The notes under the pieces: model-generated
The model's database searches: none
Seen by the model: only the letters and a program-made list of their open reading frames with translations
Told to the model about the DNA's origin: nothing
Program-made: the position numbers and the translations under genes
Source of the DNA: Opitutia bacterium
GTDB lineage: Bacteria; Verrucomicrobiota; Verrucomicrobiia; Opitutales; Seribacteraceae
Assembly: GCA_002730975.1 (NCBI GenBank)
Contig: PCBO01000010.1
Coordinates: 22,734-86,733, forward strand
Direction: 5' to 3'
Length of the DNA: 64,000 nucleotides
In this document: positions 16,626-51,070 of the stretch, in pieces
Layout: each line of letters opens with the position of its first letter
Position numbering within the stretch: the stretch's first letter is position 1

Positions 16626-18569
16626 TCAGCCAAAATTCACAACTTTATCTTGGGTTGCTATATCCTGAACAGAAGAACCGTCGTATCTTTTGTAACCCTC
16701 AACGGCCTGTTGTAAAACAAGAATCGCTTTTTCATGATCATTTGCAGCGCAGGCACTTCTGAGATCATCTAATACGGATTCAAGTTCACTCGATGGCATA
16801 CACTTTTCTAAAACACCCATTATTTTGGGGTGCTTTGTACCGAAAACATCACCGTCAATTAAAAGCTCTTCGTAGAGCTTTTCCCCGGGACGCAATCCGG
16901 TGAACTTAATACCAACGTCATTAGCCGTGTTGGTAGGAGATGAATCACGACCCATTAATCGAATAAGTTTTTCTGCTAAAGTAACGATTTTAACAGGCTT
17001 TCCCATATCTAAAACGAAGACATCCCCGCCCCTGGCCATAGAACTTGCTTGAATAACTAATTCCGAGGCCTCCCTAATAGTCATAAAATATCGTTGAACC
17101 TCAGGATGCGTAACGGTAACAGGACCGCCTTGGCGGATTTGCTCCTTGAATAACGGAGCTACCGAACCTGAGGAGTTTAACACATTACCAAAGCGAACCA
17201 TACAGTATGTGCAGTCAGACCTAAGCGAACGATCTTGCAATATCATTTCAGCCAATCGCTTGGTCGCACCCATAACATTGGTTGGTCGCACGGCTTTGTC
17301 CGTAGATATAAGTACCAAGCACTTAACTCCATTTTCTGAAGCAGCTCTAGCTAGAGTAAGTGTCCCGAAGACATTATTTTTAATTCCCTCAACAGGATTG
17401 TCTTCCACCAAAGGAACATGCTTGTAAGCCGCAGCATGATAAATGGTGTCAATGCTATAACGATGAATCAATTCAGATACTCGCTCCATATCTTGAACTG
17501 AACCAAGCTTACCTACAATTTCCACTCCCCCCCCTGATTCACGAGACAAAGTCAGCAACTCTCTTTCAATAGAATATAAATTATACTCGGATAGTTCATA
17601 AACAACTAATCGAACTGGTTTTAAAAACAAAATCTGCCGGCACAATTCGGAACCAATGGAACCACCCCCTCCACAAACCAAGATCGATTGCCCTTTAATC
17701 CTCCCTTCCAACAAGCTGGACTCGGCGGGAACTACTTCTCTTTCCAAAAGGTCATCTACTTCAATTTCTTTAATTTGCTCAAAATAATCTTCAGAAGAGG
17801 AATCAAGTGAGCTAAAATCGCTAACTAGCCTTACCTCTACTCCCAAATCGGCAAGTTTGTCTAAGATTTTGCGACGACGAGCAGGAGTGGCTGAAGGTAT
17901 AGAGAGAATAATTAAAGATGGAGAATAACGCTCAAATTGCTTAATAAACATTTTCCAAGCAAGTACAGGCAATCCATGAATTTTACGACCGATCAAGCTG
18001 GCATTATCATCGACAAACGCGATTGGTAAGAAGCGACGACTACCTTGAAGAGCGGTAGCAGTAGCTCGGCCCGATTCACCTGCACCATAGATGACTAATC
18101 GCCGATACCCGTAAGGTCGGGAATCGAAAGCCAACAAAAGGGTGCGAGCAAACATTCTAACACCACCTACGAAAAAGTTACCTGATAAAAAGAAAATGCA
18201 AGGGACGGACCATTGAAGGTCACCTGAATGCCCGGAAACCGCAAGAAGGAGGGCAAGAACTATAGCAGATACAGCCAGCCCACCTATGACGGAAGGCAAC
18301 GTACGGAAACTGATGTAGCGAACCATCTCCCTGTAAAGACCAAGAACTGCAAAAGACAAAAGCCCAACAACTGTAACAATGAGATAGACCCATTTCAGTT
18401 CTTGTTTTGCTAATTCACCGAGTCCTTGCCGCAGTGCAAAAGCGATGAACAAGGAAAGTGGCAAAACGATTATATCGGTAAAAACCACGATGACAGTCTT
18501 GGATCTACGAGATAAGGACAGTACCGAAGAATGCCATAATTTTAGACTTTTCAGGATTGCTAGTTTCAC
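16626..18569 (-). CDS. Membrane-bound UDP-GlcNAc 4,6-dehydratase (WbpM/PglF/CapD family)
   Basis: 647 residues. About four N-terminal membrane segments (VIVVFTDIIVLPLSLFIAF and others) precede a first Rossmann domain (GAGESGRATA) and the catalytic SDR domain (CGGGGSIGSELC). The active site reads ISTDKAVRPTNVMGATKR, so the usual SDR YxxxK is MxxxK. This is the SMK triad characteristic of WbpM, FlaA1 and PglF. Such enzymes turn UDP-GlcNAc into a UDP-4-keto-6-deoxy sugar at the inner membrane face. That product is the precursor of FucNAc, QuiNAc, bacillosamine and related sugars. Length and layout match full-size WbpM. The neighbouring E1alpha/E1beta pair and deacetylase/formyltransferase may act on the resulting 4-keto sugar. 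No aminotransferase of the PglE kind is adjacent. Confidence 0.93.
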   Translation of the reverse strand: MKLAILKSLKLWHSSVLSLSRRSKTVIVVFTDIIVLPLSLFIAFALRQGLGELAKQELKWVYLIVTVVGLLSFAVLGLYREMVRYISFRTLPSVIGGLAVSAIVLALLLAVSGHSGDLQWSVPCIFFLSGNFFVGGVRMFARTLLLAFDSRPYGYRRLVIYGAGESGRATATALQGSRRFLPIAFVDDNASLIGRKIHGLPVLAWKMFIKQFERYSPSLIILSIPSATPARRRKILDKLADLGVEVRLVSDFSSLDSSSEDYFEQIKEIEVDDLLEREVVPAESSLLEGRIKGQSILVCGGGGSIGSELCRQILFLKPVRLVVYELSEYNLYSIERELLTLSRESGGGVEIVGKLGSVQDMERVSELIHRYSIDTIYHAAAYKHVPLVEDNPVEGIKNNVFGTLTLARAASENGVKCLVLISTDKAVRPTNVMGATKRLAEMILQDRSLRSDCTYCMVRFGNVLNSSGSVAPLFKEQIRQGGPVTVTHPEVQRYFMTIREASELVIQASSMARGGDVFVLDMGKPVKIVTLAEKLIRLMGRDSSPTNTANDVGIKFTGLRPGEKLYEELLIDGDVFGTKHPKIMGVLEKCMPSSELESVLDDLRSACAANDHEKAILVLQQAVEGYKRYDGSSVQDIATQDKVVNFG

Positions 18570-19664: not shown

Positions 19665-19691
19665 AAAATCTGGAAAATATAAGTCAAAAGC

Positions 19692-21479: not shown

Positions 21480-22444
21480 TTGTTATTTTGACCGATTATT
21501 TTAGAGACTAGATCGTATCCAGAAAGGCCCATTCTACTTTGAACCTTGAGAACCTCGGATGGAATCTCTTCATTGTGTCCTGATACTTGTACTTTCTTGA
21601 CAATTAAATTAGTGTCGCCTCCACAAGAAACTATGGCATGTCCATTTTCAATGGCTTGTATTTGGCCAGGAATACCAGTGTACATTGGGCTTTTAATCAA
21701 ATCCGCTTCCCAAATGACAATTTCGCTGCCTCCATATAAGCTAAATGCGCCTGGATAAGGTTTCGAACTTGCTCGAATAAGAGTCCAAATATCAAGTGCA
21801 GGGAGTTCCCAGTTAATAAAGCCATCGATACGCGTTCTTTTAGAACAATAAGTCGCCGTTCCGTGGTTTTGAGCAGTACGAGGTAACACACCATCTTTCA
21901 AGAGAGGAAGAGCCTCATTTAACATGTTCTCAAGACCCAAAACCTGCTTGTCATACAAAGTTGACGCGGACTCATCATAATCTACTGAAATGGGGTTCTG
22001 AATTATAATGTCACCAGAATCAACCCCCTTATCAAGCCAAAACAAAGTTCCGGCAGTTTTGGTTCTGCCTTGCAAGATTGTCCACGGTATAACGGCTCGT
22101 CCACGATTTTCAGGTAAAGCAGATGGATGAAAACCAACGCAACCCACTTGCGGGATTTCTAGGAGATTGCGAGATAAAATCTGTGACCAGCCAATGCAAA
22201 ATATAAAATCTGGCTCATAGCTTTTAATTTTTTTTATGGATTCAGAAGAATTAATAAAGTCCGTGTGAACACATTCTATTCCATTTAAATTGGCAATTGG
22301 TACGAGATCTACATAGTCTGAATGACGATGACCTTTATCAAAGGGTAGCGTAAAAATAGCATTTAGGGGAAAGTCTAGAGCGATAAATCGCTCCAATGCC
22401 CTAAGTGATATTTGGACTGTCCCTATAAAAACTGCGGAACTCAT
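21476..22444 (-). CDS. Formyltransferase-family protein with altered catalytic triad
   Basis: 322 residues. The N-terminal VFIGTVQISLRALERFI and the central GFHPSALPENRGRAVIPW, with WLDKGVDSGDII after it, are the formyl-transferase fold found in methionyl-tRNA and sugar N-formyltransferases. The usual catalytic triad is Asn-His-Asp. Here His (GFHPS) and Asp (GVDSG) are kept, but the Asn two residues before His is a Gly. From memory a subgroup in surface-glycan loci shares the GFHP-RGR form. It should use 10-formyl-tetrahydrofolate or a related donor to modify an amino sugar. The gene start lies 44 bp inside the end of the sugar transferase, in another frame; the N-terminus fits the fold, so I keep this start. 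Confidence 0.84.
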   Translation of the reverse strand: MSSAVFIGTVQISLRALERFIALDFPLNAIFTLPFDKGHRHSDYVDLVPIANLNGIECVHTDFINSSESIKKIKSYEPDFIFCIGWSQILSRNLLEIPQVGCVGFHPSALPENRGRAVIPWTILQGRTKTAGTLFWLDKGVDSGDIIIQNPISVDYDESASTLYDKQVLGLENMLNEALPLLKDGVLPRTAQNHGTATYCSKRTRIDGFINWELPALDIWTLIRASSKPYPGAFSLYGGSEIVIWEADLIKSPMYTGIPGQIQAIENGHAIVSCGGDTNLIVKKVQVSGHNEEIPSEVLKVQSRMGLSGYDLVSKIIGQNNK

Positions 22445-23036
22445 TTAATGATCGTATAATTTCGGTTTCATTTCGTCGTTCACCGCAAAAGACAACTGAA
22501 ATAGTTTTAAAAAAAATTAAGACATCAATGAAAAGAGAACGATTTTCAACATACCACAAATCCAGTGAAAACATCTCGTCAATTGATAATTTAGTATTAC
22601 CACTAACCTGCGCCCAGCCTGTCAAACCTGGACGCATTGATTGCCTTTTCCGGGATAAAGCCAGTCTAGATTCGACCTCACTGACCAGTTTTGCCCTAGG
22701 ACCGACAATACTCATTTCACCCTTTAAAATGTTAATTAGATTCGGAAGCTCATCTAACTTACAGCGCCTTAAAACCTTACCGAATTTGGTAATTCTTAAA
22801 TCTGGCGGAAGAAGTTCATTAGAATCATCATACAAATCCAACATAGTTCTGAATTTGAAAATTAAAAATGGTCGATTCTGGTAACCTGCTCTAGACTGTG
22901 GAAAAAAAATACCGTCTTTGTTAGTCAAAAAAAGAATGATAGATATAAATAAAAGCAGAGGCAATGTAGTAAATAAAACAGCGCAAGTAACGACTATTTC
23001 GAAGATGCGAAACAGGAAAATATAAATTTTCAACAA
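22401..23036 (-). CDS. Initiating sugar transferase, short monotopic type (PglC-like)
   Basis: 211 residues. There is one N-terminal hydrophobic re-entrant segment (FEIVVTCAVLFTTLPLLLFI), then SRAGYQNRPF, FKFRTM, DELPNLINILKGEMSIVGPRA and RPGLTGWAQVSGN. These are the complete core motifs of monotopic phosphoglycosyl transferases. It lacks the N-terminal multi-pass domain of the WbaP-type protein at 1..961. It would load a sugar-phosphate onto undecaprenyl phosphate. Close relatives such as PglC use UDP-diNAc-bacillosamine or similar 6-deoxy amino sugars, which would match the WbpM-like dehydratase and modifying enzymes downstream. The end overlaps the formyltransferase start by 44 bp. Confidence 0.93.
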   Translation of the reverse strand: MLKIYIFLFRIFEIVVTCAVLFTTLPLLLFISIILFLTNKDGIFFPQSRAGYQNRPFLIFKFRTMLDLYDDSNELLPPDLRITKFGKVLRRCKLDELPNLINILKGEMSIVGPRAKLVSEVESRLALSRKRQSMRPGLTGWAQVSGNTKLSIDEMFSLDLWYVENRSLFIDVLIFFKTISVVFCGERRNETEIIRSLNEFRSFYRDSPNIT

Positions 23037-24895: not shown

Positions 24896-26131
24896 TCAGA
24901 TTACATTAATATTAGATGTATTGATGAGAAGTTGCTCCATCTTCTCCCCCAAGAAGTTCATATTGTATTTACTCTCGACATGCTGCCTACCAATCTCCCC
25001 CATCCGTTTCCTTTGAGATGGAGTCATTGCTAACAATTCCTCAAAAGCATTGGCTAACAAATCAGGTTTCTCTGGGTCAACGCTTATGCCTGAACCAGAT
25101 TCCTTTGCTGGGTCGTTTGGTGCTGTACCTGAAAAAACTACGGGGCGGGAAGATCCGTAATAATCATAAATTTTGTTGAGATTCAAACCAAATCGATATG
25201 AATCCGACTGAGTAACGCATGCTACAAGAATATCCGACTCCATTTGTACATTCGGAACTTCCGACTTTGGTACTGAATCTCTAAATTCAATATTAGTTAA
25301 GCCCAATTTTTTGGATTCATCAACGCATTCTTGCTTTTTTACTCCATCACCAATCATTATAAATTTGAACTTACCTCTTTGTCGTTTGTTAAGAATGTTC
25401 GCTGCTCGAACCAAGGTAATAACATCATGTGCTTGCCCAAAACCACCTACGTACATGACAGTAAGCGGCATATTTTTTCCACCATCATACGTATCCTTGC
25501 CAGTAAAACGATTAAGGCTAACTCCATTGGGAGTCCAATGAACTTTAACAGGGTCACCACCACTTTCCGCCACATGGTCGCACAGATAGGGTAAAGTTGA
25601 AGAAATGACACTGGCTTGCCGGTACAATTGCTTTTCCAAATGCCTAAAGGCGAAATAAATCGGGCTCCATTTCGACAAACCTCCATCATCGACAAGAATC
25701 GCAGGCCAAACATCTCGAACCTCAAAAACAAATGGTGCATTTTTACGCTTTGCGATTCTGGCAGCTGCCCAGCCGGTACCAAGAGGAACTGAAGGACCAA
25801 GAACCACATCGGGCACATCAGATAAAACACTGGCAACTTGAAGACAACGAAGCGCATTAGATAACATATTCAAACCCCGCCCAAGCCCATTCCCGGAATA
25901 TGGAATTGTCTTTAGCCAAACAATACGGATCCCATCGATGTTTTCGATTCGCCACTTTTCCGATTGCTCTAAGATATCTAGGTGACTCCAATGGCAAAAG
26001 CTATTGGTAAAAAAAGTCACCTTGTGCCCCCTTTTTACTAATTCCAAAGAATAATCATACGTCCTCGAAGATAATCCACGGGGTTGATCGTGAGCAGAAA
26101 AATACCAAATATTCAATGAAACCACTATCAA
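24896..26131 (-). CDS. GT4 glycosyltransferase (WbuB-like)
   Basis: 411 residues, close in pattern to WbuB and related L-fucosamine-type transferases as I recall them. Motifs are SLNIWYFSAHDQPRGLSSRT at the start, FEVRDVWPAILVDDGGLSK in the first domain, MYVGGFGQAHDVITLVRAA at the domain junction and LNKIYDYYGSSRPVVFSG in the donor domain. It would transfer a hexose or 6-deoxy amino sugar onto the lipid carrier-linked chain. Being near the PglC-like transferase, it is a candidate for the second sugar. It starts 25 bp after the stop of the glutaminase-WbpG fusion gene. Confidence 0.9.
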   Translation of the reverse strand: MIVVSLNIWYFSAHDQPRGLSSRTYDYSLELVKRGHKVTFFTNSFCHWSHLDILEQSEKWRIENIDGIRIVWLKTIPYSGNGLGRGLNMLSNALRCLQVASVLSDVPDVVLGPSVPLGTGWAAARIAKRKNAPFVFEVRDVWPAILVDDGGLSKWSPIYFAFRHLEKQLYRQASVISSTLPYLCDHVAESGGDPVKVHWTPNGVSLNRFTGKDTYDGGKNMPLTVMYVGGFGQAHDVITLVRAANILNKRQRGKFKFIMIGDGVKKQECVDESKKLGLTNIEFRDSVPKSEVPNVQMESDILVACVTQSDSYRFGLNLNKIYDYYGSSRPVVFSGTAPNDPAKESGSGISVDPEKPDLLANAFEELLAMTPSQRKRMGEIGRQHVESKYNMNFLGEKMEQLLINTSNINVI

Positions 26132-26156: not shown

Positions 26157-27974
26157 CTAGTATAACTTAGAGACTTGATTTATAGTTTTTATAGCATACT
26201 CGAAATCGATGCCCACTGCATCAAGATACCAACGAATGTTTTGATACCTAGGACGATTTTCTTCTTCAATTAACTCTAGAGCCTCAAGTCTAGTAAGTTG
26301 ACCTTCCCGAATTTGGTTGCTTCTAAAGGTGTCGTGTTCAGTAAAACCGGCAATGGTATAATAGGCGTAATTGTAAAATGCAGCAGTTCCATCCCCAATA
26401 CGCCATGTTGTTTTGGTATCGGGAGCCTTTTCCCAATCATAGATATCCAGTGTACGATCAGATTCCTGCTCTTCCCAAGAAAAATAGTCAAAAAGGTGAA
26501 AATAATCAGTTTTCTTATGAATACTCCTCCAATATTCTCCTGAAATCGTATCATACAATGAACCATTCAAGTATCCCGGGTTTCTGAGATACTGAAAGGT
26601 CCTATTAAACTGATATCTAAGTTGCCTACGGATGCCTTGACTATAAACTAATTCTTCTTCGAATGCAGGAGGAATTCCGAGAAAACCAGCTTTGAAGTGA
26701 GTCACCTCGAGCGGATTTACACCCCATAAGTTAAGTCCTATACCTGTCTGCTTTTTGACTGTCTCCACATGCTGAAAAAAGTGTTTATCCCCTGCCGTTA
26801 AAACGCTGAGCATGCCGAGATGCGGACGTTGCAACCACGCAGACAGATTTTTTCTTATATTGTCTCTCTTTTTCTCGATATCTGCAGCAACTATAATATT
26901 TTCAACATTCAAGGCTGAACACATTCTACTAATATTTCGCCTAGCCAGATCGGTAACCATTCCCCAGTCATAGGTATAAGTTATGGGTCTCATCCCTAAC
27001 TCTTCAACAGCAAGATGCAAAGAGTAACTGCTATCCCTTCCCCCCGAAAAAGGTATTATGCAATCTGGCTTTCCGGATCTTTTATATGGTTCTACTAGTT
27101 CCCTTAGAACACTGATTGGCTTAGTTTTATTTTTGGACTTGTAGTTGTGACAGTAATTACAAACACCATCTTCACCAAATCTGATGAATGGCATAGTTTC
27201 AGGCAACACGCAACATGAGCATCGTCTAAGAGAAGATTTATCATAGACAAGCAAACTTTCCTGTTGTGAATTTTTCTGAAGTGATGGCAAAAGATCTCTT
27301 GAACTCTTTTGAACGAATTGATGCTCACGCATGAGCGGAGATGACTTGTTGATGTCAATAATCAGGGTCTTTGGTACTGCGGAAATGTCATCACAAGATA
27401 TTTTTAATAGTGGGTACTCTTCAGAAGAAAAAAATGTCGTTCCATTTTTATTTCCAGTATAAAGGCTTCCATTATTTGTCATCAGTAAGACACAACCATG
27501 CATTGGCATCAAAATAGCGGCCGAAACGACACCTTTGCATTTTTTGAGAACCTCACCGGCCGCATCTTTTACGCTGACGCCATTACTTAAATATTCACTC
27601 ATTAACGCTGGTATGATTTCAGTATCTATAGTCAGGTTTCGTTCTTGTTTAGTGGTTTCCCATAGTTCATCAGCATTAACGACTATTCCGTTATGCAAAG
27701 TAACAATTCCATCTCGCACAATAGGCTGGTTGTCATGCATCCCATCCGTAACCAAACGACTGTGCCCCATAGTAAGATATGAATCACCAAAATCAACTTT
27801 TCTCAGTAAATCGAGAAGGGTCGAGTCCGAACGAGACACATTACAAATCTCATCTCCGCAGATAACGACACCTGAAGAATCACGACCTCTTTGCTGGGCA
27901 TATTTCGCAAGAATTCTTACATCCTTGGTATAATTGCCTTTAGTCTCGGATATAAAGCCGAATATTCCACACAT
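26157..27974 (-). CDS. Fusion of class II glutaminase and N-acetyl sugar amidotransferase (WbpG-like)
   Basis: 605 residues. Residues 1-200 are a class II glutamine amidotransferase: Cys2 nucleophile, QQRGRDSSGV (27-36), GHSRLVTDG (70-78) and LHNGIVVNADEL (93-104). Residues 250-600 are a WbpG/PseA-type synthetase: Cys pairs CSCC (252-255) and CNYC (272-275), likely a zinc site, then the PP-loop PFSGGRDSSYS (308-318). WbpG enzymes normally obtain ammonia from separate HisH2 and HisF2 proteins, to turn an N-acetyl into an acetamidino group on a uronic acid. Here the glutaminase is built in and is of a different fold class. It starts with CGIFGF like AsnB but lacks the AsnB synthetase. The stand-alone WbpG system lies at 31567..34072. 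The domain assignment is strong; the substrate is inference. Confidence 0.88.
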   Translation of the reverse strand: MCGIFGFISETKGNYTKDVRILAKYAQQRGRDSSGVVICGDEICNVSRSDSTLLDLLRKVDFGDSYLTMGHSRLVTDGMHDNQPIVRDGIVTLHNGIVVNADELWETTKQERNLTIDTEIIPALMSEYLSNGVSVKDAAGEVLKKCKGVVSAAILMPMHGCVLLMTNNGSLYTGNKNGTTFFSSEEYPLLKISCDDISAVPKTLIIDINKSSPLMREHQFVQKSSRDLLPSLQKNSQQESLLVYDKSSLRRCSCCVLPETMPFIRFGEDGVCNYCHNYKSKNKTKPISVLRELVEPYKRSGKPDCIIPFSGGRDSSYSLHLAVEELGMRPITYTYDWGMVTDLARRNISRMCSALNVENIIVAADIEKKRDNIRKNLSAWLQRPHLGMLSVLTAGDKHFFQHVETVKKQTGIGLNLWGVNPLEVTHFKAGFLGIPPAFEEELVYSQGIRRQLRYQFNRTFQYLRNPGYLNGSLYDTISGEYWRSIHKKTDYFHLFDYFSWEEQESDRTLDIYDWEKAPDTKTTWRIGDGTAAFYNYAYYTIAGFTEHDTFRSNQIREGQLTRLEALELIEEENRPRYQNIRWYLDAVGIDFEYAIKTINQVSKLY

Positions 27975-31566: not shown

Positions 31567-32703
31567 TTACCAGTTTCGCCTAACGCGAATACCTCTTTTT
31601 TCTAAGGTCTCCTTAAGCCAAGTTCTATATTTATGCCATATCAATTCATTAGGATATTCATCATGCTTTTGTGGAGAATCAGCCATTATCTTCTCCCAAT
31701 CAGAATGTTTTAAACCTAATTTCTTAAGGAAATAGTCTTTGTCCGATCTCAGTGATTGTGGATCATAGAGAGGTTTTGTGAGTAGGTTCAAGGCTTCCTC
31801 TCTAGTAATTTGCCCATCCACAATCAGGCTGGAATAATGGGCGCGGCGCTTATCAAATCCAAATTTAACTGGTAAATAATGTGCTTGGAAGAATTTAGTG
31901 AACCTAGATTCATGATGTTTACCGCCATAATCCTTCCATCCGTAATCAACTTTCAGAGTATCAATGGCTTGTTCCCTATGATAATCGACATCGTTGAGGA
32001 TTCTGTAATTACGAACTCCTCTAACAAAAGGAAGCCAGAAATATGATTTTAACATACCCATGGAGGGGTACCCTCTTAAGCCATGTGTTCCATAAAGTCG
32101 CGATATTGCCTTAATATGCTTGAGGTCGCGAGCATCATGCCCCCAGGAACCCGGAAGAATAGATTCACTGGCAAAGTTGCCTCCGGAGACAAAGTCTTTT
32201 AACCTAAATTTAGAAGCGACAAGATTGTTTACCGCAACAATAGCATGATCTTGCGGTATGTCGCAATTAGGTACTGATGCTCGAAAGAAAGCAGCCTGCA
32301 AATCTCTCATCGACTCCCAATCCACAACAATGGTTTCTAGGTCAATTCCCAGCGTGTTGACCAAAGAATGTATGTTATGGGTTGCTTCTTCGCTATTCCA
32401 ACCGGTATCACAATGAACCGCTAAAAGCCTAAGACCGGCTTTATGCGCCATTGCAGTCGCGTAGGTGCTATCTACTCCCCCGCTTAGACCAACAAGAGCA
32501 TCAAAATCTCTATTTTTATTTCTTTTCTTTATGCCATCAACCGTTCTCTCTAAATTATCTATTCCCTTTTTTCCCTTCGACACAAAGGAGTCCATCACCG
32601 AGATAGCATTGACACAGTGGTTGCAATAACCACTAGCGTTAAATGTAATCTCATAGTCAGATGTATTCATGACACATCGCCTGCATTCTTGCTGATTTTT
32701 CAT
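31567..32703 (-). CDS. wbpG: N-acetyl sugar amidotransferase (WbpG/PseA family)
   Basis: 378 residues, the normal length. Four cysteines in two pairs (C7/C10 in CRRC and C27/C30 in CNHC) form the expected zinc knuckle. The ATP-pyrophosphatase loop is GLSGGVDSTYATAM (72-85) and a conserved VHCDTGWNSEEATHN follows. The enzyme uses ATP and ammonia to convert an N-acetyl group of a UDP-uronic acid to an acetamidino group. Ammonia comes from HisH2 through the HisF2 barrel, whose genes lie directly upstream with 4-bp ATGA overlaps. In P. aeruginosa O5 this set makes UDP-ManNAc3NAmA. The gene order here, hisH-hisF-wbpG-GT, is the same. Confidence 0.94.
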   Translation of the reverse strand: MKNQQECRRCVMNTSDYEITFNASGYCNHCVNAISVMDSFVSKGKKGIDNLERTVDGIKKRNKNRDFDALVGLSGGVDSTYATAMAHKAGLRLLAVHCDTGWNSEEATHNIHSLVNTLGIDLETIVVDWESMRDLQAAFFRASVPNCDIPQDHAIVAVNNLVASKFRLKDFVSGGNFASESILPGSWGHDARDLKHIKAISRLYGTHGLRGYPSMGMLKSYFWLPFVRGVRNYRILNDVDYHREQAIDTLKVDYGWKDYGGKHHESRFTKFFQAHYLPVKFGFDKRRAHYSSLIVDGQITREEALNLLTKPLYDPQSLRSDKDYFLKKLGLKHSDWEKIMADSPQKHDEYPNELIWHKYRTWLKETLEKRGIRVRRNW

Positions 32704-33455
32704 TGGACTAACGAATTAAGTTCCTTCTCGGACAAGTAATTAATCAAAACACCACGTCGAGGCCCCTGAAAAACAAACATACTACCAGCAGCAACGGCAT
32801 GCGCTCCTGCTTTAAGCGCTTGTTGCAAGTGTGCATGAGTACCCGCTCCCCCTACTGCAACCACGGGAACTGAAACACTTTCTGAAACACGAGAAATTAA
32901 GTTAAGGTGCATTCCTTGCATCTGCCCATCATGGGGTATCGATCTAATAATAATCTCTCCGACTCCAAAATCTACACATTTCATAGCAAAAGCAATTGGA
33001 TCGAGATGGGTTTTATGCTTCCCCCGTGAAGTGAATACTTTGTTTTTGCCAAACCAGGAATTACCCACGTCAATCGATACGACGATACTTTGCCCTCCAA
33101 AAGCAGATACTGCATCTTTCAACAAATCGGGAGTTTTCTCTGCCCATGTGTTCAACACTACTTTCTCAAAACCAGCTCGAAAAACTTCTTCAATACGGTG
33201 CAAGGAATTCAAGTGCCCACCAAATCCCATTGGCATAAAAGCTTCGGGAGCCATTTCCTTTACGAACTCAAACGTCTTGATAGAGGGCTCTTTGCTTATA
33301 TCGAAAATTAACAATTCATCTACCTCTTTATCATTAAATATTCTTAAAGCGTTTAGGGGATCACCAACATACACGGGGGATTTGAATGAACGCGTTCGAA
33401 ATAGGCCAATTCCATCTAGAGTCAGGACAGGAATTACGCGGGGGCGAATTATCAT
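32700..33455 (-). CDS. hisF2: HisF2-like barrel subunit of the sugar amidotransferase
   Basis: 251 residues with a full HisF beta/alpha barrel: RVIPVLTLDGIGLFRT, YVGDPLNALRIFNDKEVDE, VVSIDVGNSWF, IIIRSIPHDGQMQGM and VVAVGGAGTHAHLQQAL. In histidine-pathway HisF the first strand carries a catalytic Asp (CLDVKDG). Here that place is Thr12 (VLTLDG), while the later Asp (SIDVG) and the HDG Asp are kept. Loss of the first catalytic Asp is typical of the HisF2 proteins in WbpG systems, where the barrel is thought only to channel ammonia. So this is not the histidine enzyme. Both ends overlap neighbours by 4 bp. Confidence 0.93.
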   Translation of the reverse strand: MIIRPRVIPVLTLDGIGLFRTRSFKSPVYVGDPLNALRIFNDKEVDELLIFDISKEPSIKTFEFVKEMAPEAFMPMGFGGHLNSLHRIEEVFRAGFEKVVLNTWAEKTPDLLKDAVSAFGGQSIVVSIDVGNSWFGKNKVFTSRGKHKTHLDPIAFAMKCVDFGVGEIIIRSIPHDGQMQGMHLNLISRVSESVSVPVVAVGGAGTHAHLQQALKAGAHAVAAGSMFVFQGPRRGVLINYLSEKELNSLVQ

Positions 33456-34072
33456 GTCAGATTAATAAAATCACGAATAAGCGCTTTGCCAGATCGATGG
33501 CTTTTTTCTGGATGGAATTGAACACCAAGCAATCGACCATGACGGATACCACTAGCAAAACGAATACCCTCATATTCTGTTGTTGATAAACATTCAGATC
33601 TATTTGCACCATCAACAAAGAAAGAATGTACAAAATAAAACCTTTCACATTCGCTTAAATGAGGAAAGTCAACTTCAGGTCGGAAGGAAGCGGAGTTCCA
33701 ACCCATATGAGGAACTTTGATACTTCTATCTATATGATCCTTTTCGGGAAAACGCTTTGTATCGAGGTCAAACCAACCTAGTCCTTCGCAGTTTCCTTCA
33801 GCACTAAATCTAGTCATTAATTGCATGCCTAGACAAATTCCCATTATCCATGTGTTACGATTTTTTGCGTTTTCTAATGCGGAGAGCCAGCCAGTTTTAC
33901 GCATACGCTTCATAGCTTCGCCAAAATGACCAACACCAGGCAGAATAACTTTTTCGTAGTTATCGAGAGCGTCTGGTTGATCGACAACAAAAGGACGGAA
34001 ACCTAAATGAGTGACCATATTTACAATCGAACCAATATTACCCATTCCATAATCTACAATACAAATAGACAT
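33452..34072 (-). CDS. hisH2: HisH2-like glutaminase subunit
   Basis: 206 residues of the class I (triad) glutaminase family. It has PGVGHFGEAM, the nucleophile elbow IMGICLGMQLMT with Cys80, and the late GVQFHPEKSHRSG carrying His and Glu. It hydrolyses glutamine and feeds ammonia into the HisF2 barrel for WbpG. It starts at 34072, 3 bp after the stop of the upstream glycosyltransferase, and ends in the ATGA start of hisF2. No other histidine biosynthesis genes are in the window, which supports a polysaccharide role. Confidence 0.93.
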   Translation of the reverse strand: MSICIVDYGMGNIGSIVNMVTHLGFRPFVVDQPDALDNYEKVILPGVGHFGEAMKRMRKTGWLSALENAKNRNTWIMGICLGMQLMTRFSAEGNCEGLGWFDLDTKRFPEKDHIDRSIKVPHMGWNSASFRPEVDFPHLSECERFYFVHSFFVDGANRSECLSTTEYEGIRFASGIRHGRLLGVQFHPEKSHRSGKALIRDFINLT

Positions 34073-44059: not shown

Positions 44060-45157
44060 TCAAATATTACATTCCAGCAATGTTTCCATAACTTCCCCTT
44101 GATCCTCCTCGGTGAGATATGGACCCATAGGTAGACTTAAGCACTGATCTGCAAGATTTTCAGTAACGGGAAAATCACCTTTGGAATATCCAAGGGACGA
44201 AAATACCGGCTGAAGATGAAGAGGGACTGTGTAGTAAGGAACAGATGGAATAGCCTTGGACTTAAGAATTTCCTGCAATTTCGATCGATCCGCGGACTGG
44301 ATGGTATATTGAGCGTAAACGGACGTCGAGTCTGCCGCAATCATGGGGACACCAAGCACCCCGCCTTCCCCTAGATTCGATGAGTAACGCTCTCCGATTT
44401 CCTGCCTCTTTTTTACTTCTTCGGAAAATACTTCTAGGACTGCCAAAAGAATGGCGGCCTGAAGTGTGTCAAGTCGACCATTGATTCCTAAAATGGGATG
44501 ATGATGCTTACGTTCTTGACCGTGTACTCGAATCCAACGGAATTTTTCGGCTAATTCATCGTCTGATGTAAATAAAGCGCCACCATCTCCATAACACCCT
44601 AATGGCTTTGAAGGGAAAAAAGACGTGCTGCCGATGGTCGATAGATTACAGGATTTTTTATTTTTGTAAGTAGCTCCAAAGCTCTGCGCAGCATCTTCTA
44701 TAACTGGAATATTATATTTTTTGGCGATTTCGTTGATTGAATCCATGTCAGGTGTCTGACCATAGATAGAAACAGGCATGATTGCCTTGGTTTTTGAAGT
44801 TATAGCGACTTCGAGAAGTTTTTCATCCATGTTCCATGTATCCGGACGGATATCGACGAAGACCGGAGTGGCACCAAGCAAAGCTATAACCTCGGCCGAA
44901 GATATCCAAGTATATGGAACTGTAATGACTTCATCTCCTTGTCCAATGCCAAGAGCCATCAGTGCGATAAGCAGAGAGTCGGTACCGCTGGAAACGGACA
45001 CACAGTGCTTGACCCCGACATACTCAGCAAGCTTTTGCTCGAGTTGCCGAACTTCAGGACCAAGGATGAATTGCCCGTGCTCCATAACTGCTTGGATTCT
45101 TGTATCAATCTGATCTTTGATCAGGCGGTGACGAGACTTTAAGTCAATGAATTGCAT
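44060..45157 (-). CDS. wbpE: UDP-sugar 3-aminotransferase, DegT/DnrJ/EryC1 family (WbpE-like)
   Basis: 365 residues. PLP-enzyme landmarks are SVSSGTDSLLIAL (54-66), VIEDAAQSFGATY (152-164) with the cofactor-binding Asp, and the Schiff-base Lys184 in SFFPSKPLGCYGDGG. RFRWIRVHGQERKHHH and GRLDTLQAAIL follow. The combination KSCNLSTIGSTSFFPSKPLG is very close to WbpE as I remember it. WbpE transfers an amino group from glutamate to C3 of UDP-3-keto-GlcNAcA. The WbpA-, WbpB- and WbpD-like genes upstream supply and finish this reaction series. The gene follows gmd after 3 bp. Confidence 0.93.
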   Translation of the reverse strand: MQFIDLKSRHRLIKDQIDTRIQAVMEHGQFILGPEVRQLEQKLAEYVGVKHCVSVSSGTDSLLIALMALGIGQGDEVITVPYTWISSAEVIALLGATPVFVDIRPDTWNMDEKLLEVAITSKTKAIMPVSIYGQTPDMDSINEIAKKYNIPVIEDAAQSFGATYKNKKSCNLSTIGSTSFFPSKPLGCYGDGGALFTSDDELAEKFRWIRVHGQERKHHHPILGINGRLDTLQAAILLAVLEVFSEEVKKRQEIGERYSSNLGEGGVLGVPMIAADSTSVYAQYTIQSADRSKLQEILKSKAIPSVPYYTVPLHLQPVFSSLGYSKGDFPVTENLADQCLSLPMGPYLTEEDQGEVMETLLECNI

Positions 45158-45160
45158 GAT

Positions 45161-46156
45161 TTATAAGATATTAGCTTTTGCCGAAAGACACATGTCATGA
45201 ATTATTTCAGTAAAAGAATGAGTGGTTCGCCAACCTAGATTTTTTTTGGCCTTACTAGGATCACCACAAAGTCTTTGAGGCTCATTTGGACGTAAAAACC
45301 TATTGTTAATTGAAACGAAATTACGATAATCTAGTTCGAAATATTCAAAAGCCACAGAAAGAAATTCCCTGAGGCTATGAGCCACGCCGGTAGCCAAAAC
45401 ATAATCATTCGGATTCTCCTGCTGAAGCATCTGCCACATTCCCTCTACGTAATCTTTAGCATGCCCCCAATCTCTCTCCACATCCAAGTTACCAAGCTCC
45501 AACGAATCTTTTTTTTCTGCTGCAATTTCGGCTGCAGATCGAACGATTTTCTGGGTCACGAAGTTTTCGCCCCGCCGCGGAGACTCATGATTATAAAGAA
45601 TACCATTGCATACGAACAAACCATAAGATTGTCGAAAAATGCGTCCCATATGAACGCAAAATGCTTTTGAGGCCCCATAGGGAGAAGTCGGATTGAAATT
45701 TGATTCTTCGTTTTGATGGGGTTCCTGAGCATCACCAAAAATTTCTGAGGAGCAGGCTAGATAAATTTTGGGTCGGAATTCCTGATCTCGGCATATTTCG
45801 AGAAGTTTGACAGTGCAACCGGCAATTTCCTGCGTAGTAAGTTCGGGAATTTCAAAGCTTAGCCCTACATGGCTTTGTCCGGCTAGATGGTAAAACTCAT
45901 CGGGACCCACTTTTTTGAAAATTCTGCGCAGGGAAGCATCGTCATTTAAGTCCGCATAATGAAGATACAATTTATTCCCATAAATTCGATCATCCTTTAT
46001 CAGGTGATCGATACGCCACCTATTAAACGAACTGGAACGCCGGACAACGCCATGTACTTGATATCCTTTTTTCAACAAGAGCTCGGTAAGGTAAGAACCG
46101 TCTTGCCCGGTAATTCCCGTAACAAGTGCGGTTTTATGGAATTCATCCATAATCAC
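45161..46156 (-). CDS. gmd: GDP-mannose 4,6-dehydratase
   Basis: 331 residues. ALVTGITGQDGSYLTELLL is the Gmd-specific cofactor motif, then VHGVVRRSSSFNRWRIDHL, ACSSEIFGDAQE, YGASKAFCVHMGR with the Tyr-Lys pair, and NHESPRRGENFVTQKI. It makes GDP-4-keto-6-deoxy-D-mannose. The ATG at 46156 or the one two codons later (MDEFHKT) could be used; the first overlaps the upstream acetyltransferase stop by 4 bp. The usual next enzymes (fucose synthase, rhamnose reductase or perosamine aminotransferase) are not adjacent. The SDR at 7844..8698 is a possible reductase. Final sugar unknown. Confidence 0.94.
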   Translation of the reverse strand: MIMDEFHKTALVTGITGQDGSYLTELLLKKGYQVHGVVRRSSSFNRWRIDHLIKDDRIYGNKLYLHYADLNDDASLRRIFKKVGPDEFYHLAGQSHVGLSFEIPELTTQEIAGCTVKLLEICRDQEFRPKIYLACSSEIFGDAQEPHQNEESNFNPTSPYGASKAFCVHMGRIFRQSYGLFVCNGILYNHESPRRGENFVTQKIVRSAAEIAAEKKDSLELGNLDVERDWGHAKDYVEGMWQMLQQENPNDYVLATGVAHSLREFLSVAFEYFELDYRNFVSINNRFLRPNEPQRLCGDPSKAKKNLGWRTTHSFTEIIHDMCLSAKANIL

Positions 46157-46800
46157 GGTATCTTGAATGAATCGTAAGTTTTAGAACCAGTAGCTAGTTC
46201 CATTGGCAAGGTTTTCTCCTCATCGAGGTCAAGACAGTGGACGACTTCTCCCACTCTCTCATAATAATAATTCGATTCGGGACAAGCCGCTCGGTTCGAT
46301 TCATCGAATGTCAAGCGATGTCCATGACGGCTCATATGGCCTGATAATTTAGCCGGGTTGCCCAGAACTAATCCGTAATCCGGCACATTCTTGGTGACGA
46401 CTGAACCAGCACCAATGAAGCAGTAGCGTCCTAGAGTGACCCCGCAGACGATGGTAGCGTTCGCCCCAACGGTGGCACCTCGACGAATCAAGGTCTTTTC
46501 GTACAGTGTTTTCCGACTAACTTGAGAACGCGGGTTGGTGACATTGGTAAGCACGCAGGATGGTCCCAAGAACACGTCATCCTCAATAGTAACGCCTCCG
46601 TAGACCGCAACGTTGTTCTGGACCTTTACATCGTTGCCAAGGACAGCTTTGTCTGCAACCAAAACATTTTGACCCAGCGAGCAATTTCTTCCGATCACCG
46701 CCTCGGAACAAACATGGGAAAAATGCCAAACTCTCGTACCTTCGCCAATTACTGCACCATCGTCGACGACGGCTGAGTGATGAACCTTCAAATCACTCAT
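46153..46800 (-). CDS. wbpD: UDP-2-acetamido-3-amino-glucuronate N-acetyltransferase (WbpD-like)
   Basis: I use the ATG at 46800 (MSDLKVHHSAVVDDG) rather than the track start at 46848. It makes an ATGA overlap with the upstream oxidoreductase and removes 16 non-family residues; length becomes 215. The body is a left-handed beta-helix of hexapeptide repeats (IGEGTRVWHFSHVCSEAVIG, VKVQNNVAVYGGVTIEDDVF, VGANATIVCGVTLGRYCFIG). A C-terminal tail with HGHRLTFDE and a CPESN motif follows. WbpD acetylates the 3-amino group made by WbpE, giving UDP-GlcNAc3NAcA. Context with WbpA, B and E-like genes makes this call strong. Confidence 0.93.
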   Translation of the reverse strand: MSDLKVHHSAVVDDGAVIGEGTRVWHFSHVCSEAVIGRNCSLGQNVLVADKAVLGNDVKVQNNVAVYGGVTIEDDVFLGPSCVLTNVTNPRSQVSRKTLYEKTLIRRGATVGANATIVCGVTLGRYCFIGAGSVVTKNVPDYGLVLGNPAKLSGHMSRHGHRLTFDESNRAACPESNYYYERVGEVVHCLDLDEEKTLPMELATGSKTYDSFKIP

Positions 46801-47795
46801 TGGGAGAGAGAAACAGGTATCCCATTTTGATCGATGCTCGACTGGCAAGCATGAAGGACCTTCAACACCTCTATGCCGGATTGGGCATCAGTGAGAGGTT
46901 TGCTACGATTCGTGACGCAATCCAAGAAATGACGACATTCTTCACGAAGAGGTTCGACATCGATATATTCTATGGGTTCGCAATCCTCCTTTTTGAGTAC
47001 GGGAACCTTTCCATCAAATTCTACGGTTTGCGGATAAAGGAGTAGTTTTTCTCCGTAAGGAACAACGTCATTGAAGATGGCCATCTTCTTTTCACCCACG
47101 ACAACAAGGCGTTGCTCCTTGAAGGGATGCAACCAGCTGACGAATATGTGTGCACGCGATTCGTCCTTGAACCGCAAATTCGACACGGTCGCATCAACTA
47201 ATCCCTTGGTTAGATAGGAACCTCCGGTGGCGGCAATTTCGACAGGAGACTGTCCGAGCAAGCGGAGGATGACTGCGACGTCGTGCGGGGCAAAACTCCA
47301 AAGTGCATTTTCCTCGGTACGCACCTTTCCAAAGCTTAATCGGTTGGAATAGACGTAATTAATTTTCCCAAGTTCAGAGGAATCAATCAATTCACGCAAT
47401 TTGAGTACCGCAGGGTGGTACTCCAACAAATGTCCGACCATGAGGATACTTTCGGTTTGATCAGCAACTGCCTTCATTCGTTCCGCATCTTCAACGCTCA
47501 AAGCCATGGGCTTTTCGACATACACGTCCTTTCCTGCCTTCATCGCCTTGATAGCCAATTCCGCATGAGTTTCGGCAGGTGTTGCGATAGCAACAGCTTG
47601 AATTTGAGTATCATTCAAAGCATCCTCAAAATGAGAAGACACTTTGATTCTCGGAGCGATCAAGCGGGCTTGAGCTTGTCCGGATTCAGTGGCATCGACC
47701 ACACGAGCCAAGGCATTGAGAGCATGAAAATTCCGGCATAGGTTCTTGCCCCAGTAGCCGCAGCCGACCAAAGCAATTTTAGTTATATCGTTCAT
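46797..47795 (-). CDS. wbpB: Gfo/Idh/MocA oxidoreductase (WbpB/WlbA-type role)
   Basis: 332 residues. IALVGCGYWGKNLCRNF is the dinucleotide fold, VYVEKPMALSVEDAER carries the family EKP motif, and SFAPHDVAVILRLLG gives the catalytic His region. In this pathway the enzyme oxidises C3 of UDP-GlcNAcA to the 3-keto form for WbpE. Its overlap with wbpD downstream (ATGA) and with the SDR upstream (4 bp) supports that role. By sequence alone it is a general Gfo/Idh protein, so the gene symbol rests on context. Confidence 0.87.
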   Translation of the reverse strand: MNDITKIALVGCGYWGKNLCRNFHALNALARVVDATESGQAQARLIAPRIKVSSHFEDALNDTQIQAVAIATPAETHAELAIKAMKAGKDVYVEKPMALSVEDAERMKAVADQTESILMVGHLLEYHPAVLKLRELIDSSELGKINYVYSNRLSFGKVRTEENALWSFAPHDVAVILRLLGQSPVEIAATGGSYLTKGLVDATVSNLRFKDESRAHIFVSWLHPFKEQRLVVVGEKKMAIFNDVVPYGEKLLLYPQTVEFDGKVPVLKKEDCEPIEYIDVEPLREECRHFLDCVTNRSKPLTDAQSGIEVLKVLHACQSSIDQNGIPVSLSQ

Positions 47796-48778
47796 AATTC
47801 AATATCCTTCAACCATTCCCGGTTGTCCACGTACCATTGGACGGACTTTTCCAATCCTACGTCAAGAGTTGCTTCCGGTTCCCATCCGAGCAAGTTCTTG
47901 GCCTTATCGATATCAGCCCAAGTTTCCTTGAGGTCGGCAATGTGAAAAGGTTCATGATTGATCTTGGCTTTTTTGCCTAACAAAGATTCAAGCCTCTCGA
48001 TAATCGCATTGAGTGTAACCGGGTTGCGACCACCCCCGAGGTTAATGATCTCATATCCTACCTGTTGCAAGGCGGCAACAGAACCTCTTGCAATATCGTC
48101 GACAAAAGTAAAGTCGCGAGACTGGGAACCATCACCGAACATTTGAATGGTTTCTTCCTCAGCAATCCACTTGATGAATCGATAAGGCGACATGTCGGGA
48201 CGTCCTGCTGGACCGTATACGGAGAAGTAACGAACTACAGAGACATCGATTCCATAAAGACTGTGGTAACTGTAAGCCATCAACTCGGCCGCTTTCTTCG
48301 AGGCGGCGTAGGGGGAAAGAGGTTCGTTAACCGCTAGATCTTCAGTAAAGGGCATGGATTGCCCAGCATAGAGCGATGATGTGGATGCAAGAACAAACTT
48401 CTTACAACCCGACTGCCGCATACATTCAAGTAGATTAAGGGTGCCTCCCGCATTGGTAGGCAAGTAAACATGCGGATTTTTCATGCTGCATCGCACACCG
48501 ACCCGAGCAGCTAGGTTGAGCACGGCGTCAAACTGATCTTCACCATTGAAGAGGTTTTTCAACCCTTCCTCATCTTCGATATCTAGATTGTGAAAACGAA
48601 AGTTTTGGGACTGTGAATGTGCTTTGAGCTGGCCCAATCGCCAATCTTTTAGTCTAACGTCATAATAATCGTTGAGATTGTCGACACCGACCACTTGATA
48701 GCCATGATCCAACAGTTCCCGTGATAACCGAGAGGCGATAAAGCCTCCAACACCGGTAACGAGGTATTTCTTACTCAA
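47792..48778 (-). CDS. NAD-dependent nucleotide-sugar epimerase (UDP-glucuronate 4-epimerase-like)
   Basis: The track start (ATG 48814) lies 40 bp inside the upstream dehydrogenase gene and gives 12 atypical residues. A TTG at 48778 forms a TTGA overlap with that gene's stop and starts right before KKYLVTGVGGFIASRL, so I prefer it; the ATG remains possible. VDNLNDYYDVRLKDWRL is the hallmark of UDP-glucuronate/galacturonate 4-epimerases. The active site is LASTSSLYAGQSMPF plus YAASKKAAELMAYSY. It may epimerise UDP-GlcA or the UDP-GlcNAcA made by the adjacent WbpA-like enzyme. Fold is certain; substrate is uncertain. Confidence 0.88.
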   Translation of the reverse strand: MSKKYLVTGVGGFIASRLSRELLDHGYQVVGVDNLNDYYDVRLKDWRLGQLKAHSQSQNFRFHNLDIEDEEGLKNLFNGEDQFDAVLNLAARVGVRCSMKNPHVYLPTNAGGTLNLLECMRQSGCKKFVLASTSSLYAGQSMPFTEDLAVNEPLSPYAASKKAAELMAYSYHSLYGIDVSVVRYFSVYGPAGRPDMSPYRFIKWIAEEETIQMFGDGSQSRDFTFVDDIARGSVAALQQVGYEIINLGGGRNPVTLNAIIERLESLLGKKAKINHEPFHIADLKETWADIDKAKNLLGWEPEATLDVGLEKSVQWYVDNREWLKDIEL

Positions 48779-50055
48779 GCTTGAAAATATTTTGCCGGTC
48801 TTTGAATAATACAATCTCGGGTATCCACAATCGGGCAGTTGAAATTGCTAAAATCAAACCTCCTGTACTCGGTATGGTCAGTGGACAGCAAAATCAGATC
48901 GTATTTATCCTCTATGAGAACGGACTGTTTGCCTGAAAGATGGGCGTGCTCGCGAGTCTCAGGAATCACAGGGACATATGAGTCATTGTATTCAACCCGA
49001 GCTCCTTTACTTACCAAATTTTCCATGAGAACGAAAGATGGCGATTCCCGGCAATCATCGACGTTCGCCTTGTAGGCCAAGCCGAGAATCAAGATTTTGG
49101 AACCGTTCACAGCCTTACCTTGGTCGTTTAGAACGTCCACTACTTTTGCGACTACATAATCGGGCATGGCGGTGTTAATCTCTCCCGCCAATTCGATAAA
49201 GCGTGTATGCTTACCGAATTCACGAGCTTTCCAAGTCAAGTAAAATGGATCGATCGGTATACAGTGCCCGCCGAGTCCCGGACCGGGGCGAAAGGGCATG
49301 AATCCAAAAGGTTTTGTCGCGGCTGCTGAAATCACCTCGTGCACATCGATACCCATGGCTTCGTAAACCACCTTAAGCTCGTTTACCAATGCAATGTTCA
49401 CGCTCCGAAAAATGTTTTCCAAAAGTTTAGTGGCTTCCGCAGCACGGCAGGAAGACACCCGATGAATATTGTCCAAGGCTTGCCCATACAGGGTTTGGGC
49501 CAAATTCCCACAATTGGGAGTAAATCCACCAACGACCTTAGGAATGGTCTTTACGCTGGCATCCTCTCTTCCCGGATCTTCGCGTTCCGGGGAATAGGCG
49601 AGATGGAAATCGACACCTGCCTTCATTCCCGAACCATCCTCCAATACTTGACGAAGTTCGTCCTCGGTGGTTCCCGGATAGGTGGTCGACTCCAAGGTGA
49701 CTAGCACGCCCGGGGAAAGACAGGGAGCCAAAGACTTGGCAGTATCCAGCACGAAGGACAGGTCGGGTTCACGATGTTCGTCTAGAGGTGTGGGAACGCA
49801 AATGAGAATCGCCTCGACTTCCGAAATACGAACAGGATCAGTGGTGGCCTCGAAACGGCCGGCATTGACCTGCTCTGAGATACTTTCGGAAGAATAATGT
49901 TTGAGGTATGATTGTCCCGAATTGATAGCATCAACCTTCGCAGGGTCGAGGTCGAGACCGAGTACGGACACACCTGAGCGGGCGAATTGAAGGGACAAGG
50001 GGAGACCAACGTAACCGAGTCCTACCACCGAAATTTTAGAGAAGTGCTTAGACAT
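48775..50055 (-). CDS. wbpA: UDP-N-acetyl-D-glucosamine 6-dehydrogenase (WbpA-like)
   Basis: The start chosen is ATG 50055 (MSKHFSKISVVGLGYVG) instead of 50130, because the extra 25 residues are not family-like. The 8-bp overlap with the Wzz gene fits the tight operon. The protein is about 426 residues with NAD motif VVGLGYVGLPLS, LICVPTPLDEHREPDL, LESTTYPGTTEDEL, the helix EATKLLENIFRSVNIALVNE and the catalytic Cys in GPGLGGHCIPIDPFYL. It oxidises the C6 hydroxyl of UDP-GlcNAc to the uronic acid in two NAD-dependent steps. It is the entry point to the diacetamido-uronic acid route encoded here. A UDP-GalNAc dehydrogenase cannot be excluded. Confidence 0.93.
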   Translation of the reverse strand: MSKHFSKISVVGLGYVGLPLSLQFARSGVSVLGLDLDPAKVDAINSGQSYLKHYSSESISEQVNAGRFEATTDPVRISEVEAILICVPTPLDEHREPDLSFVLDTAKSLAPCLSPGVLVTLESTTYPGTTEDELRQVLEDGSGMKAGVDFHLAYSPEREDPGREDASVKTIPKVVGGFTPNCGNLAQTLYGQALDNIHRVSSCRAAEATKLLENIFRSVNIALVNELKVVYEAMGIDVHEVISAAATKPFGFMPFRPGPGLGGHCIPIDPFYLTWKAREFGKHTRFIELAGEINTAMPDYVVAKVVDVLNDQGKAVNGSKILILGLAYKANVDDCRESPSFVLMENLVSKGARVEYNDSYVPVIPETREHAHLSGKQSVLIEDKYDLILLSTDHTEYRRFDFSNFNCPIVDTRDCIIQRPAKYFQA

Positions 50056-50986
50056 GGGACGGATTGCTTCTTTCTTTACTGGAAGATTTAATTTTTGCCA
50101 AGAACTGGAGAAAATACACTGAAAAAACACCTAGGAATGCACCGCAGACACCACCGAGAACAACGATCAATTTTCGCTTGGGCTTATCGCGAGTTTCCGG
50201 AGCAACGGCGGGATCGATAACTTCAAGGGCAAAGTCCTCATTCACATTGGCTAGCATCGCCTTTTGCTTTTCGGATTCAAGCAATTTGTATAGTACTTCT
50301 CGCATATCCTTAAGGGTTGTCTTGGCCAGTTCCTTCTCTAGATACCCAACCCGTTTCTGAGAGTCCTCAATGGCTTGTTCACGAAGTTGTTCGTTTAATT
50401 GCTTAACCAGATCATTTGCCCATTGTGCTGCAATTTCGGGCTCCTTCCATGAAACGGATAGTGTGACCAGCCCAGACTTCTTGTCCTCGTTGACAGAAAG
50501 GATTTCCTTGAAAAACTCAACCGAAGCTTGCTCGTTGGGTTCATCCTCTTTTGAATCAACGATCCAAACTTTTTTATCCGCATCCCATAAATTATCGTAT
50601 AAAACACTGAGTAGGCTGTTATCCTTAATGAAGCGGAATAAAAATTTTCGAGATTCTAGGGTGGCTATGACTTGCTCGGTATTAGAACCGCTAGGTATCG
50701 AAATTCCCGCCATCGCGGCTAAACCACCGAGTTGGCCGATAGAAGACGGAACTCCTGATTTTTCCTCTTGGGCAGGTGCCAGCAAAACCTCAGCTTTGAA
50801 GATCTCTTGAGAATACAAGGCGTAAGTAACCGCCAAACCAGTAGAGATAATAGTTATGAAGACTATCAATTTCCAAGACTGCAGGAGAGAGCGGATCAAT
50901 TCGAGAAGCTCAACCTCATCATCATCCACTATAGGACTGGATTCGACCATGACGTATTTAGTATCTGATTTATTATCTGTATTCAT
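50048..50986 (-). CDS. wzz: Wzz-like chain-length determinant / polysaccharide co-polymerase
   Basis: 312 residues. Two membrane segments bracket a periplasmic domain: LIVFITIISTGLAVTYALYS near residue 45 and LIVVLGGVCGAFLGVFSVYFL near the end. Before the first is a short acidic N-terminus; the periplasmic part has charged coiled-coil-like helices (VKQLNEQLREQAIEDSQKRV). The second segment follows the expected proline-rich DPAVAPETRDKPKRK. There is no cytoplasmic tyrosine kinase domain, so this is the Wzz rather than the Wzc type. It controls chain length together with Wzy and may contact the Wza-like protein. It lies 84 bp after the GbsR-type gene. Confidence 0.9.
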   Translation of the reverse strand: MNTDNKSDTKYVMVESSPIVDDDEVELLELIRSLLQSWKLIVFITIISTGLAVTYALYSQEIFKAEVLLAPAQEEKSGVPSSIGQLGGLAAMAGISIPSGSNTEQVIATLESRKFLFRFIKDNSLLSVLYDNLWDADKKVWIVDSKEDEPNEQASVEFFKEILSVNEDKKSGLVTLSVSWKEPEIAAQWANDLVKQLNEQLREQAIEDSQKRVGYLEKELAKTTLKDMREVLYKLLESEKQKAMLANVNEDFALEVIDPAVAPETRDKPKRKLIVVLGGVCGAFLGVFSVYFLQFLAKIKSSSKERSNPSHV

Positions 50987-51042
50987 ATTTCAACAAGCTA
51001 CCGCCCTTGGCCGCTCGGATAATCCCGAAGCCAATCAATTGA

Positions 51043-51057
51043 GGCGACATGTACGCC
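51043..51057. promoter_or_regulatory. Weak inverted repeat upstream of wzz
   Basis: The 84-bp gap between the GbsR-like gene and wzz contains GGCG ACATGTA CGCC, short arms around a near-palindromic centre, 57 bp before the wzz start. It could be an operator for the adjacent regulator, but a 4-bp arm occurs often by chance. Confidence 0.15.
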
Positions 51058-51070
51058 ATAAAACTTAATT

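Follow-up and report, generated by a model that had tools for sequence, protein, structure and literature searches.

The window, a 64,000-nucleotide stretch of an Opitutia MAG (3.85 Mb, 152 contigs), contains a polysaccharide cluster in which one gene encodes both a glutaminase and an N-acetyl sugar amidotransferase (NASAT) synthetase (Table 1). The initial annotation had the extent and the length of this gene right; its strand needs correcting, as the gene lies on the minus strand.

Table 1. Features of the fused gene and of the surrounding cluster in the window.
Feature	Position	Strand	Details
Fused glutaminase–NASAT gene	26157..27974	(-)	Uninterrupted single ORF, 605 aa, start MCGIFGF
Class II (Ntn) glutaminase domain	27330..27974	(-)	Residues 1-215; GATase_7/6 matches; nucleophile Cys2 directly after Met1
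Interdomain linker	27234..27329	(-)	Residues 216-247; poorly conserved
NASAT (WbpG/WbuX-like) synthetase domain	26160..27233	(-)	Residues 248-605; TIGR03573, LpNASAT fold
Tetracysteine (metal-site) motif C252-C255-C272-C275	27150..27221	(-)	Residues 252-275
PP-loop SGGRDS	27030..27047	(-)	Residues 310-315
GT4 glycosyltransferase	24896..26131	(-)	Begins 25 bases after the fusion
Canonical stand-alone WbpG/WbuX NASAT	31567..32703	(-)	TIGR03573 245 bits, cut-off 203 passed
HisF2 (AglZ/HisF2) of trio	32700..33455	(-)	NF038364 291 bits, just under cut-off 310
HisH of trio	33452..34072	(-)	TIGR01855 197 bits, over cut-off
WbpA-like nucleotide-sugar 6-dehydrogenase	48775..50130	(-)	TIGR03026 422 bits
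WbpB-like UDP-HexNAcA 3-dehydrogenase (Gfo/Idh)	46797..47795	(-)	NF040723 E 3e-44, below cut-off
WbpD-like N-acetyltransferase	46153..46848	(-)	54% identity to WbpD of the E. coli cluster
WbpE-like DegT aminotransferase	44060..45157	(-)	PseC-family model 241 bits, below cut-off; adjoins wbpABD
Initiating sugar phosphotransferase (PglC/WbpL type)	22401..23036	(-)	42 loci, the window among them, have a homologue in the same operon position
PglF/WbpM-type 4,6-dehydratase	16626..18569	(-)	29 loci, the window among them, have a homologue; PseB/FnlA-like domain
AsnB-like genes (GATase + Asn_synthase)	14565-16448 and 40341-42305		Same cluster

Class II glutaminase similarity extends over residues 1–210 of the protein, with a match to the GlmS subfamily model at E 3e-18, and Pfam GATase_7 (35.7 bits, cut-off 25) and GATase_6 (34.5 bits, cut-off 27) match within residues 67–190. 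Residues 251–574 match TIGR03573 (WbuX, N-acetyl sugar amidotransferase; E 4e-38, 131.7 bits), below the curated cut-off of 203.2 bits, which the fusions of 38 genomes did not reach either (at most 154 bits). The closest sequence in the PDB is the Legionella N-acetyl sugar amidotransferase 8wex, which aligns with the C-terminal part (E 2.8e-10), and the best solved relative of the N-terminal part is GlmS. The cysteines (C252/C255/G270-V-C272-N-Y-C275) fit the pattern CXXC-Xn-[GN]XCXXC, and SGGRDS fits the NASAT motif SGGXDS (PMC10607449).

NCBIfam profiles for GlmS, PurF and AsnB match the fusion mainly through their glutaminase ends. We rejected an identity as GlmS, as SIS domains were unmatched at E ≤ 1 and the GlmS model was covered at its first ~218 positions only, and an identity as AsnB or WbpS, as Asn_synthase (PF00733) was unmatched at E ≤ 1 and TIGR01536 scored 42 bits against a cut-off of 267.

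An AlphaFold2 model built from a 57-row alignment (mean pLDDT 90, pTM 0.90) had its lowest-scoring block of the first 300 residues in the linker, around residues 221–230 (pLDDT 70). Searching the PDB with Foldseek, we recovered the GlmS glutaminase domain (1xff; TMt 0.74, rmsd 2.7) and LpNASAT (8wex_B; E 8e-13, TMt 0.57). Asparagine synthetases spanned both domains but superposed poorly (rmsd ~23 Å), and the domain placement of the fusion therefore differs from that of AsnB. Domain search, motifs and fold thus confirm the proposal made from the sequence at the outset, that an Ntn (GlmS-like) glutaminase and a WbpG/WbuX-like NASAT synthetase are joined in one chain, and the GATase_7/6 and 1xff matches bear out that its ammonia source and HisH have unrelated folds. 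All motifs named in that proposal are present, although the middle cysteine of its 'CSCC' (C254) varies among aligned fusions.

Distribution and conservation of the fusion

Searching 134 relatives brought two further fusions of full length, at 75% and 60% identity, together with a fragment that breaks off at its contig end; two others, also of full length but more distant, came from a phylum sample. When 85,462 species genomes were scanned once, 507 loci proved to encode a relative, and the best 80 of these 507 were essentially full-length matches of 55–75% identity, from at least ten phyla as named in the database records. Fusions occur in Verrucomicrobiota, Alpha-, Beta- and Gammaproteobacteria, Bacteroidota, Actinomycetota, Planctomycetota, Bacillota, Acidobacteriota, Spirochaetota, Campylobacterota and others, the nearest to that of the window being one in Opitutia bacterium SP85. 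A phage collection returned one weak match, to the glutaminase part only. The existence of ~80 independent full-length homologues across many phyla therefore excludes a sequencing error or chimera joining two ORFs, one of two objections that the initial annotation had raised against itself.

The other objection, that the N-terminal domain of homologues might not be a glutaminase, fared no better. Every one of the 57 sequences in the structure alignment matched GATase_7, and M1-C2, R73, N95-G96 and D117 are kept in all 61 aligned fusions, as are C252, C255 and the SGGRDS at 310–315. C272 and C275 are kept in 60 of the 61, the one exception being an assembly gap.

In the tree, the fused synthetase domains group together as one clade, apart from stand-alone NASATs (support 100/99), and a single origin therefore fits. 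We saw no case in the tree sample where the glutaminase had been lost, a judgement that leaves aside the fragment L004, which ends at a contig end. The fusion thus appears widespread and conserved. Its description as WbpG-like stands on the WbuX match and is narrowed by the score under the curated cut-off and by this separate clade. Homologues were misannotated in the public records examined, under the labels 'glucosamine 6-phosphate synthetase', '7-cyano-7-deazaguanine synthase' or 'hypothetical protein'.

Ammonia supply and the canonical trio

The window holds, in addition to the fusion, a canonical trio of NASAT, HisF2 and HisH (31567–34072). We scored the trio in 38 fusion-bearing species genomes by matches to NF038364 (HisF2) and TIGR03573 (NASAT), each over its cut-off. 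HisF2 was present in 17 genomes and the canonical NASAT in exactly those 17, a coincidence with a chance of 3.5e-11 if the two were independent; the stand-alone NASAT therefore comes with HisF2. Neither was detected in the other 21 of the 38 (genome completeness is unreported), which include named isolates of Devosia, Vibrio, Chryseobacterium and Reinekea. The fusion therefore needs no HisF2, in line with the original claim that no HisH/HisF partner is required and as expected if its own glutaminase supplies the ammonia.

The accompanying idea that homologues always lack hisH2/hisF2 neighbours did not hold, given the 17 genomes and the window itself, and for the same reason we ruled out the fusion as a replacement for the trio everywhere. 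Within 10-kb flanks, at least one trio gene was found in 21 of 73 fusion loci and all three in 9. It would be redundant for trio and fusion in one cluster to carry out an identical reaction on one sugar, and their joint presence in 45% of the genomes suggests that they target different residues or positions.

Two further observations concern these regions. Near the fusion of an Algoriphagus genome (at 50182-51147), G523:C74:48345-48686 shows a partial HisF2-like match (136 bits; model positions 134–247) in an open frame of 136 aa; this genome has no canonical NASAT, and the frame may be a decayed remnant of a trio. Between trio and fusion in the window, a 478-residue ORF (28943–30379) is unmatched in Pfam at E ≤ 0.0001.

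Gene neighbourhood and predicted reaction

Across 73 loci, the recurrent gene order is GT4, fusion, GT4, sugar phosphotransferase, PglD, DegT aminotransferase and PglF/WbpM, with the two flanking GT4 genes differing from each other. A homologue of the window GT4 lies within 10 kb of the fusion in 53 of the 73 loci and within 1 kb in 44 of these, and the median gap between the two genes is 8 bases. Wbp-pathway genes are common in 20 fusion-only clusters (up to 20 kb on each side). WbpD is the acetyltransferase of 2,3-diacetamido-uronic-acid synthesis; its homologue occurs in 35 of the 38 fusion genomes, in 32 of them on the contig of the fusion within 35 kb (median about 12 kb). In the background set, which covers the window's phylum and is unmatched to the fusion genomes in taxa or polysaccharide richness, 51 of 388 genomes have it, and WbpD may serve some other residue in the polysaccharide concerned. 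WbpI was found in 13 of the 38 genomes only, which weakens ManNAc3NAcA as the sole substrate.

E. coli Z1323CEC0003 offers the clearest example: its O-antigen cluster encodes, in order, WbpB, TviB/WbpA, an acyltransferase, an aminotransferase, Wzx, Wzy, a GT4, a WecB-type epimerase, the fusion and a GT4; from galF to gnd it contains neither the NASAT trio nor another sugar amidotransferase. This fusion gene (L113 13947-15776), annotated 'glucosamine 6-phosphate synthetase', is present in 2 of 5,426 E. coli genomes.

Elsewhere in the window, ORF 4390–6342 groups with the two AsnB-like genes by BLAST, and one of these two could be a WbpS-type uronamide enzyme. An E1/transketolase-like gene pair (18687–20717; TPP-dependent dehydrogenase alpha and beta types) lies inside the polysaccharide cluster and adjoins a PIG-L deacetylase (20814–21479) and a formyltransferase (21476–22444), with which it may build an N-acylated sugar.

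From domains and gene context, we infer that the fusion is probably a one-chain glutamine-dependent N-acetyl sugar amidotransferase, with a Wbp-type substrate and an acetamidino product most likely. The Ntn domain would hydrolyse glutamine via Cys2 once Met1 is removed; the ammonia would move to the C-terminal synthetase, where the PP-loop with ATP (to AMP and PPi) would activate the acyl oxygen of a sugar substituent for displacement by that ammonia. The most likely substrate would be a Wbp-pathway sugar nucleotide of the 2,3-diacetamido-2,3-dideoxy-uronic acid type; given a synthetase of NASAT type, the most likely product would be an acetamidino group formed from the N-acetyl of this substrate. 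This synthetase scores under the WbuX cut-off, and its reaction may therefore differ from that of WbuX. Where a trio is present, the fusion would probably act on a second residue within that repeat unit, with the adjoining glycosyltransferase as its partner.

The main alternative, in our view an unlikely one, is that the product of the fusion is a uronic acid with a carboxamide at C6 (a uronamide). It takes this rank because WbpS/WbqG-type AsnB-like enzymes and PGN_1234 of P. gingivalis, which also combine Ntn and PP-loop domains, are needed for uronamides in pathways of the same kind (PMC7468200); the presence of the trio in 17 of the 38 fusion genomes, suggestive of another reaction, and the score under the WbuX cut-off point the same way. 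However, tetracysteine motif, WbuX profile and LpNASAT fold mark the C-terminal domain as a NASAT rather than an Asn_synthase (PF00733), and separate AsnB-like genes exist in the window and in 14 of 73 fusion loci. We regard as improbable, too, a substrate that is some other N-acetyl sugar, such as the second residue on a QuiNAc/bacillosamine-type primer, which would become a 2-acetamidino sugar; L-GalNAmA and L-FucNAm are known sugars of this kind. A GT4 after the fusion, followed by PGT-PglD-DegT-PglF in many loci, would accord with such a substrate, as would marine O-units composed of GlcNAc3NAcylA(N), then L-GalNAmA or L-FucNAm, then QuiNAc (PMC3210612). Yet FnlA (L-FucNAc route) occurs in 1 of the 38 fusion genomes, and its absence from the other 37 makes L-FucNAc unlikely and led us to reject it as a general substrate; moreover, the E. 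coli cluster carries Wbp-type sugar genes only. Finally, a degenerate, structural N-terminal domain, with the synthetase fed by free ammonia or HisH/HisF, would suit the low Pfam scores (about 35 bits) but is highly improbable given the invariance of M1-C2 and every examined glutaminase residue, the GlmS-glutaminase fold and the 21 genomes without HisF2.

Returning to the acetamidino product, we tentatively extend it to the whole family, which could be one of undescribed single-chain, HisH/HisF-independent sugar amidinases of one origin, spread horizontally across phyla and acting on another residue where the trio is present. We found no description of a glutaminase–NASAT fusion in the open-access literature, including E. 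albertii O-antigen papers and other O-antigen studies (subscription journals fall mostly outside this search), which agrees with the initial impression of an architecture without a characterised enzyme; each half is known, and the combination is undescribed within the literature covered. Amidino sugars recur in bacterial surface glycans, and corrected annotation would bring to light the amidine or amide sugars predicted for many polysaccharide clusters. Expression, assay and crystallisation would also be easier with a one-chain enzyme than with a set of three proteins, and the mechanism of amidination could thereby become directly testable.

Comparison with known systems

WbpG/HisH2/HisF2 of P. 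aeruginosa O5 and WbuX/Y/Z of E. coli O145 are three-protein acetamidino systems. The fusion shares with them the SGGXDS PP-loop, the tetracysteine site, the synthetase fold and a Wbp-pathway gene context. By contrast, its ammonia source is a covalently attached Ntn (class II) glutaminase, whereas theirs is HisH (class I) with HisF, and its synthetase sits in its own clade, under the TIGR03573 cut-off. The solved NASAT contains a tetracysteine zinc site and a PP-loop (PMC10607449), and this LpNASAT structure (8wex) was reported without partners.

WbpS, WbqG and PGN_1234 (eps_aminotran_1, AsnB-like) resemble the fusion in joining an Ntn glutaminase to a PP-loop synthetase and in their location in polysaccharide clusters, but their C-terminal domain is Asn_synthase and has no NASAT tetracysteine. 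GlmS has the same N-terminal glutaminase fold and catalytic residues, whereas the fusion lacks the isomerase domains. A Tannerella AsnB-type protein of 605 residues has been proposed for an acetamidino group; judged by its stated AsnB domain, it belongs to another C-terminal family than the fusion (PMC6120980). O-units that contain both an amidine sugar and a uronamide show that a single repeat unit can call for two or more amidotransferases (PMC3210612).

A HisF2–NASAT fusion of 682 aa (L011 598-2646) matches WbuZ (242 bits), HisF and, over the cut-off, WbuX (301 bits); its HisH is a separate upstream ORF whose stop overlaps the HisF2–NASAT start. As predicted from these profiles, it is a second case of a NASAT fused to an ammonia-delivery partner. 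Both this protein and the window fusion carry that partner N-terminally, and in the former it is a HisF barrel.
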